64,000 nucleotides of DNA from Saprospiraceae bacterium (GTDB taxonomy: Bacteria > Bacteroidota > Bacteroidia > Chitinophagales > Saprospiraceae). This document shows, piece by piece, positions 59,870 to 61,486 of the stretch. The stretch spans positions 1-64,000 of the forward strand of contig JAHDGJ010000018.1 in assembly GCA_020627705.1 (NCBI GenBank). Reading direction: 5' to 3'. The notes beneath the pieces are model-generated. The model made no database searches, was not told the origin of the DNA, and saw only the letters and a program-made list of their open reading frames with translations. The position numbers were made by a program, and so were the translations under genes. Numbering within the stretch: position 1 is the first letter of the stretch; each line of letters begins with the position of its first letter.

Positions 59870-61207
59870 TTAAACTTTTGAAACAGGCTCTGTTGGAGCA
59901 AAAGCCAACTTAAAGGCGTTTTCTAAATCATTTTTAATGTCTTGGACATGTTCGATTCCTACGGAAAGTCTCAACAATCCTGGTTCAACTCCCGAAGATT
60001 TTTGATCTGCTTCAGAGAGTTGTTCGTGCGTAGTAGAACTTGGATGGATGATTAATGTTTTGGCATCACCCACATTTGCGAGATGTGAAATAAGGGAAAC
60101 ATTGTTTACGATGTTGTCTGCATTTTCTTTACCGCCCTTTACTTTAAAGCTCAAAACCCCACCAAATCCATTTTTTAGATACTTCTTAGCGAGTTCGTGC
60201 TCTGGGCTGCTCTCCAACCCTGGATAGTTAACCCATACGACATCGTCACGCTGTTCTAACCATTTGGCCAATTCTAAGGCATTGTCAGCCGTTCTTTGAA
60301 CCCGCAAAGAAAGGGTCTCTAAACCTTGCAGTAATAAGAAAGAATTAAAAGGACTAATCGCTGGGCCAAAATCTCGAAGCCCCTCTACTCGAGCTCTAAT
60401 TCCAAATGCAACGTTAGGAAGACCTAAAGGATTACCTTCGCCAAATACATCAGCAAACACCAATCCGTTATAGCCAGGAGAAGGTTCTGAAAACTGAGGA
60501 AATTTGCCATTGCCCCAATTGTAATTCCCTCCATCTACAATTACTCCACCGATAGACGTGCCATGACCGCCAATCCATTTGGTTGCAGACTGTACAACCA
60601 CGTTGGCACCATAAGATATTGGCCTAGCCAAATATCCAGCTGCCCCGAAAGTGTTATCCACAACAAAAGGAATATCATATTTTCTTGCCAGTTGGGCTAA
60701 AGCTTCAAAATCCGGAACGGCAAATCTTGGATTGCCTATACTTTCTACATAGATAGCCTTGGTTGTCTCATCAATTAGAGATTCAAAACTATCGACATCA
60801 TTGCCATTGGCAAACCGGGCCTCAATCCCTAAACGCTTAAAATTTACTTTGAATTGATTGTATGTACCTCCATACAAATAAGAAGAAGTCACGAGCGAAT
60901 CCCCAGAGGTCAAAATATTGTTTAGAGCTATAAACTGAGCAGCTTGACCAGAGGCAGTGGCTACCGCATTTGTCCCACCTTCCAAAGCTGCAATCCTTTT
61001 TTCGAAAACATCGGTCGTTGGGTTCATGATACGAGTGTAAATGTTTCCAAATTCTTTTAGCCCAAATAAATTGGCCGCATGCTTTGAATCATCAAACACA
61101 AAGGAAGTAGTTTGATAAATAGGAACGGCTCTACTTTTTGTATTGCTGTCCACTTCTTGACCTGCATGTAACTGCAGCGTTTCGTAACGAAAATCTTGAT
61201 TGCTCAT
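59870..61207 (-). CDS. metY: O-acetylhomoserine sulfhydrylase
   Basis: This PLP enzyme of about 445 residues (start ATG 61207; a 16-residue longer reading is rejected) makes homocysteine from O-acetylhomoserine and sulfide. [15 protein letters not shown] holds the PLP lysine, and [22 protein letters not shown] and [17 protein letters not shown] are signature blocks of the Cys/Met gamma-lyase family. It is the first structural gene after a predicted leader peptide and terminator hairpin, so its synthesis is probably attenuated by Met/Cys supply. Confidence 0.95.
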
Positions 61208-61250
61208 TTTAATGTTTTTTAAATTTTGTGTTCTTACTGAAGAAGGGTTA

Positions 61251-61292
61251 GGCAAAAAAAAAAGCCGAAACCCAATGGCTTCAGCTTTTTTA
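61251..61292 (-). terminator. Attenuator terminator upstream of metY
   Basis: On the minus-strand RNA, AGCUGAA and UUCGGCU (DNA 61263-61286) form a 7-bp stem with one G-U pair, extended by A/U pairs, and are followed by ten Us (61254-61263). It lies about 45 nt before the metY ATG and after the Met/Cys-rich leader ORF. Confidence 0.75.
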
Positions 61293-61322
61293 AATATTTC
61301 TTTTTTAATTATTTCAAAGCAT

Positions 61323-61430
61323 CTACCATATACGAGGTTTACCCATACAACACATCATATAACAGCAGGCCATCATTTTTTGACGGTCGATTGTAGCGAA
61401 GAAATTTGTATGTTGAATACTTTGAATCAT
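61323..61430 (-). CDS. Met/Cys-rich leader peptide (35 residues) of the metYX operon
   Basis: An ORF of 35 codons starts at ATG 61430 and ends at TAG 61323. Its second half is [11 protein letters not shown], five Met and four Cys in eleven residues, precisely what a stalling leader for methionine and cysteine synthesis should have. A terminator hairpin lies just downstream and metY follows. A competing frame from the ATG at 61443 encodes an ordinary sequence and is less likely. A mechanism by ribosome stalling and antitermination is inferred; the antiterminator pairing is not resolved (ATGGC at the leader codons could pair with GCCAT in the terminator loop, only five bases). Confidence 0.7.
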
Positions 61431-61457
61431 TTTTTGTAACCATAAAATTAGTTTATT

Positions 61458-61486
61458 AAAATCTAGAAAGGCAAGTGAAAGTCAAA
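61458..61486 (-). promoter_or_regulatory. Promoter of the metYX operon
   Basis: On the minus strand, TTTG (61486-61483) and TAGATTTT (61465-61458), separated by 17 nt, fit the Bacteroidota sigma-factor pattern (TTG/TTTG and TAnnTTTG). Transcription would start near 61451, giving a short 5' end ahead of the leader ORF. It lies between the ppc stop and the leader. Confidence 0.6.

Follow-up and report, generated by a model that had tools for sequence, protein, structure and literature searches.

A candidate ribosome-mediated attenuator with Met and Cys control codons upstream of metY in Bacteroidota

Described leader peptides and the layout of the metY locus

The trp, his and leu/ilv attenuators of Proteobacteria consist of a leader ORF with control codons, a protector, an antiterminator and a terminator in series. 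The same series is predicted upstream of metY in the window—the whole stretch of 64,000 nucleotides from a Saprospiraceae bacterium (contig JAHDGJ010000018.1) that was analyzed. Unlike the classical attenuators, the leaders of Bacteroidota combine two amino acids, Met and Cys, in their putative control codons; some metY loci of this phylum have no terminator, and the leaders often occur with a SAM-I riboswitch or in tandem.

In the pertinent passage of a 2010 survey, leader peptides are known from Proteobacteria and Actinobacteria, with Firmicutes added (PMC2965389). Actinobacteria feature Cys-run leaders before cys operons, which according to the excerpt concerned have no conserved terminator hairpins (PMC1262725), and mycobacteria are reported to have cysteine-responsive polycysteine ORFs. 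As far as these excerpts describe them, the actinobacterial leaders share with the window a short Cys-run ORF before sulfur genes, whereas the window type has an intrinsic terminator, an antiterminator and many Met codons. The window leader is not of the actinobacterial Cys-run type: its run is followed by six further codons and mixes Met with Cys, and a terminator is present. The uORFC-8-2 motif of Rhodobacterales is described as carrying tandem Cys codons upstream of cysS and a terminator, with predicted ribosome-mediated attenuation (PMC8632094); it resembles the window in the order of Cys-codon uORF and terminator but differs in having two Cys codons, in preceding a tRNA-synthetase gene, and in belonging to Alphaproteobacteria.

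Within Bacteroidota, the relevant passages give unspecific clues to leader-peptide attenuation in Flavobacterium psychrophilum (PMC9723704), name Bacteroid-trp (RF01692) in a Table 1 (PMC2864571), and mention short ORFs in 5′ UTRs of Bacteroides thetaiotaomicron (PMC7366714). The first two concern the same phylum as the window and amino-acid operons, but the passages in question name no Met, Cys or metY, and the F. psychrophilum list may overlap. No Met/Cys leader before metY in Bacteroidota was found in the literature searched (main texts of openly licensed papers), where the nearest cases are the actinobacterial Cys-run leaders and the unspecific F. psychrophilum clues. The sequence-only reading knew of no described case in this phylum, which agrees with that search for Met/Cys leaders before metY; attenuation as such is not wholly undescribed there, given the clues in the F. 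psychrophilum passage (PMC9723704).

On the minus strand, the locus features in this order ppc (ending at 61541), a promoter-like stretch, a leader ORF of 35 codons (61323..61430), the terminator, metY, a metX-like gene and proC. metY (59870..61207, minus), encoding an O-acetylhomoserine/O-acetylserine sulfhydrylase, and proC (57953..58753, minus), encoding pyrroline-5-carboxylate reductase, match TIGR01326 and TIGR00112 above cut-off. The metX-like homoserine O-acetyltransferase gene (58771..59802, minus) has TIGR01392 as its best model, at 344.6 bits and below the cut-off of 500. The metY ATG lies at 61207; the frame stays open back to a TTG at 61255, inside the U tract, and the best MetY matches begin at query residue 1, so that the sequence shared by the relatives starts at the ATG. 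In the leader loci, metY has a codirectional metX directly behind it in 29 of 31 cases without SAM-I (window included) and in 43 of 48 with SAM-I, which makes co-transcription of metY and metX likely. As to the earlier proposal of coupling to metX and proC through co-transcription, the metY-metX order recurs in these loci; proC adjoins metX, within the flanks examined, only in the window.

Two minus-strand stretches may serve as promoter, as judged by pattern matching: a Bacteroidota-type TTGCC-N19-TAATTTT (61444..61474), also compared by eye, whose distance to the leader ATG is shared with relatives, and the TTTGAC...TAGATTT first pointed out by the sequence-only reading (61459..61485). A match to TTG...TANN[TC]TT ends shortly before the leader ATG in 16 of 19 relatives aligned by start codon.

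The Met/Cys run and its conservation

The run occupies codons 19–29 of the leader (61344..61376, minus), the presumed stall sites, and consists of Met or Cys in 9 of 11 codons (5 Met and 4 Cys). It is followed by the six codons of GKPRIW and a TAG; hence, the ORF and its run are as first described, except that the run does not form the very end of the ORF. Each ORF of ≤100 residues was scored by its highest Met-plus-Cys count over a 12-residue stretch, with the start residue excluded. The 450 nt upstream of metY in the window score 9, and 0 of 5000 dinucleotide shuffles reach even 6, by which a chance frame was rejected. With the window leader peptide as query against the genome of the window, the window copy alone was matched.

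Scores of at least 6 occur within 450 nt upstream of metY in 77 of 189 nonredundant loci, compared with a single locus of the 189 on the reverse strand and an expectation of 0.05 per 189-locus set from 20 shuffles per locus. The run also reaches this score in 13 of 13 further nonredundant near relatives, which were chosen for similarity to the window MetY (duplicates L206, L207, and L214 left out). The relatives therefore keep the Met/Cys run for which the sequence-only reading had suggested looking. Among the metY loci, 80 are the best 80 among the matches listed and hence lean to close MetY relatives; the phylum sample comprises 394 genomes, 216 of them with full MetY, with upstream stretches taken from about 90 places of the list. 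The set excludes the partial matches L020, L026, and L027, the duplicates L003, L005, L112, L115, and L117, and the short loci L039 and L107 (196 to 191 to 189). The genomes G001, G002, and G003, from the genus of the window, contain no full-length MetY—their best matches are paralogues with E of about 1e-37—and one of these genomes is 98% complete.

Met and Cys show no fixed order or number among the leaders, as in CCCMMCMCCCCM, MMMCMCCMMMC, and MMCCCMMICCM, and TGC and TGT interchange; both features look like selection on amino acids. At an E-value limit of 0.01, a profile of 19 leaders matched 3 of the 60 relatives and was judged insensitive because other genomes among the 60 carry leaders. 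Tandem Met/Cys leaders before metY were seen in L043, L006, L021, and L211, with a terminator for each leader in L043.

Alternative pairings of the leader RNA

The intrinsic terminator, already noted from the sequence between ORF and metY, was confirmed at 61254..61291 (minus): a 15-pair stem at 61291–61258 and a ten-T tract that ends at 61254. Its 5′ arm, segment 3 (61274..61289, minus), is the predicted partner of segment 2 (61311..61330, minus), the antiterminator strand, which spans the Trp and stop codons and the bases that follow. Segment 2 would pair by 61315–61330 with segment 3 and by 61311–61322 with segment 1, the putative protector in leader codons 2–5 (61417..61427, minus). The window antiterminator, TATGGTAGATGCTTTG with AAAAGCTGAAGCCATT, starts 13 nt after the last Met codon and is of modest significance (p 0.0345); foreign segments pair equally well with the window terminator arm in 6 of 20 cases.

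For the comparative test, the stretch from run to terminator was compared with its own shuffles for pairing with the terminator 5′ arm. Of 26 leaders with terminator picked by eye, 24 were run (the anchor string was not found in L174 and L186), and the complementarity reaches p<0.05 in 16 of these 24 (Fisher 2.5e-19). The terminator arms vary by lineage, with the leader strand varying along: TTCTCACAC, GCCATTCCT, GCCACTCTCC, CTCCTTTGG, and GCTGAAGCC. The test was repeated with decoys on a set without L174 (anchor string not found), L006, L019, L186, and L191. Here, the leader's own segment pairs with the arm at p<0.05 in 13 of 21 loci (Fisher 1.3e-14), an upstream decoy segment in 1 of 21 (Fisher 0.72), and a downstream decoy segment in 5 of 21 (Fisher 6e-4); the excess of the latter is in line with an additional 3′ arm copy that some loci show. 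An automatic version without picking by eye yielded p<0.05 for 24 of 82 leaders with about 4 expected, split into 8 of 23 with a clear terminator and 16 of 59 others. The antiterminator pairing for which the sequence-only reading had proposed a search is thus found with shuffled and displaced controls, and the combined p values overstate the evidence since the leader loci are related by descent. The protector codons 2–5, ATTCAAAGTAT, can pair with segment 2, ATGCTTTGAAAT; this pairing reaches p<0.05 in 6 of 25 by-eye leaders (Fisher 1.6e-6), with p 0.054 for the window. Among 79 leaders, a strict terminator finder assigned a hairpin with U tract to 36, in some cases at a wrong place; in the near relatives L002, L004, L037, L203, L204, L210, L212, and L213, the hairpin is kept with no U tract directly behind it.

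The window leader was folded for successive ribosome positions, with the front edge of the ribosome assumed to lie 15 nt downstream of where the A-site codon begins. In the absence of a ribosome, the protector has a probability of 0.93–1.0 and the terminator forms. With the ribosome on codons 19, 20, 22, 23 or 25–29, the antiterminator reaches 0.85–0.96 while the 3′ arm is unmade; with the ribosome at the stop codon, it drops to 0 and the terminator forms. Once the complete terminator is transcribed, it takes about 1.0 and the antiterminator about 0 at equilibrium for every ribosome position tried. Antitermination must, therefore, be kinetic, the antiterminator forming first and lasting; the equilibrium result is a weakness of the computed evidence and no test of the model.

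The locus is very probably a ribosome-mediated transcription attenuator of the trp/his type with Met and Cys control codons, as first proposed from the sequence; run conservation, the controlled antiterminator test and the folding all support this reading. The polymerase would start about 10–20 nt before the leader ATG with the ribosome behind it. At ample Met-tRNA and Cys-tRNA, the ribosome would reach the stop codon and cover segment 2, so that the terminator forms and little metY-metX(-proC) mRNA is made. When Cys-tRNA or Met-tRNA is scarce, the ribosome would stall in codons 19–29 and leave segment 2 exposed, which would then pair with the terminator 5′ arm ahead of 3′ arm synthesis and allow read-through. 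If the leader is not translated, segment 1 would hold segment 2 and the terminator would form. The codon content suggests sensing of Met as well as Cys, with less certainty for Met, a shortage of which would also lower initiation at the leader ATG.

SAM-I riboswitches, other sulfur genes and the nature of the signal

The SAM-I riboswitch (RF00162) occurs on metY in many Bacteroidota, like the leader, and binds S-adenosylmethionine directly, unlike the leader. It has no match in the window between 60000 and 64000 at E up to 1 and none in L001 with our own model R1. An Rfam element in 60000–64000 was rejected, as L20_leader, U4, and alpha_tmRNA alone appeared, all below gathering scores; nine related loci gave no Rfam match at gathering score. 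SAM-I was called by Rfam and R1 and scored for each locus regardless of strand and of distance within the sequence covered; a regular expression was dropped since it missed 30 model hits. The 189 metY loci comprise 56 with leader and SAM-I, 23 with leader only (window included), 78 with SAM-I only, and 32 with neither. In the 56 loci with both, SAM-I comes first in 49 and the leader in 7 (L162, L174, L180, L186, L191, L193, and L199; families f36 and f43, outside the class of the window).

Met makes up a mean share of 0.437 of the run without SAM-I (n=35) and of 0.214 with SAM-I upstream (n=51), a difference with p 5e-8 by a simple test; within Saprospiraceae-type loci, as named by the analyst, it has p 0.001 (21 versus 10). 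On the MetY tree, SAM-I presence needs nine changes and yields three independent pairs on supported branches, among which the Met share goes in the same direction in 1.8 of 3 on average and in the opposite one in almost none. With three such pairs, the contrast is suggestive of leaders beside SAM-I being poorer in Met. The seven leader-first loci keep Met despite SAM-I, with a mean share of 0.446, which argues against a simple rule.

Cys-rich leaders also precede another sulfur gene. By profile search, two tandem poly-Cys leaders were found in G018 before a nitrite/sulfite-reductase-like gene. PF01077 was matched in 14 of 60 relatives, and 8 of these 14 carry Cys-run leaders before the gene (L255, L256, L257, L259, L260, L261, L262, and L263)—two in tandem in six of the eight genomes, with up to ten consecutive Cys codons and a mean Met share of 0.16 (n=14). 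A terminator follows 14 of 14 of these leaders. The antiterminator reaches p<0.05 in 6 of 14 (Fisher 2.8e-10). The distance from the last Cys codon to the start of the pairing is 10–15 nt for 12 of the 14, near the presumed end of a stalled ribosome, and 0 and 7 nt for the remaining two. The genome of the window has no PF01077 match at E up to 0.001. cysD was matched in 53 of 60 genomes; among 30 cysD loci scanned, three ORFs reach a score of 6 (L225, L226, and L238) and none a higher one, which was taken as background, and the 19 kb cysD stretch of the window genome (L280) has no leader.

These data bear on which signal the leader would read. It is possible, if doubtful, that the same attenuator has Cys as its effective signal and that Met codons add little, Met shortage blocking initiation as well. 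Cys codons in every leader group favor this, as does the fall in Met share beside SAM-I and before the PF01077 gene. However, the window run holds more Met than Cys, the leaders without SAM-I have at least 2 Met in 32 of 35 cases—so that Met codons seem to be kept—and the Met contrast is clustered on the MetY tree. The attenuator reading with both Met and Cys as control codons is preferred.

That ribosome stalling results from a metal, such as Cu(I) or Zn, bound to the Met/Cys-rich nascent peptide, with the metal as signal, is quite improbable: Met/Cys runs can bind soft metals and metal-responsive upstream ORFs exist, but the genes behind the leaders are metY-metX and nitrite/sulfite reductase, the order and spacing of Met and Cys vary, and no fixed metal motif was seen in the leaders. 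It is very unlikely that the ORF encodes a small trans-acting protein whose position is incidental; several leaders show a weak N-terminal resemblance by eye (M, N or K, then S and HT), but the peptides hardly align outside the run (mean column identity of 24%, on which this candidate was rejected), and the N-terminal codons overlap the protector segment. There is next to no chance that the terminator merely ends transcripts of the upstream, same-strand ppc and that the ORF is a chance frame, given the shuffles and the recurrence of leader and terminator before metY in loci whose examined flanks showed no ppc upstream.

The leaders may—with about even chances—belong to a phylum-wide, codon-programmed sulfur attenuator, in which the Met/Cys mix would be set by the gene behind and by SAM-I presence, and in which series builds (leader–leader, SAM-I then leader, leader then SAM-I) would act as RNA logic gates on one operon. 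Bacteroidota would then gain a translation-coupled sulfur amino-acid sensor that uses control codons of two kinds, and would offer a natural collection in which codon content varies along with gene function and riboswitch presence. For a leader peptide, Met is an awkward choice, since a lack of it blocks initiation as well, which may explain the Met-poor leaders beside the riboswitch; the SAM-I arrangement is directly testable. Such leader ORFs are short and easily overlooked by annotation.

In L141, L129, L125, L135, L128 and other loci with SAM-I and leader, the aptamer lies upstream and the Cys run at the stop codon, and in most of them the finder saw no terminator between leader and metY. 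The metY loci of this build look nearer to the actinobacterial leaders, as far as the excerpt on the latter goes. In the Chitinophagaceae-type loci L046, L047, L053, L075, and L076, the leaders end with Cys-Met-Pro-stop, and the ATGCCGTRAGGCAT DNA forms a small hairpin over the stop codon.
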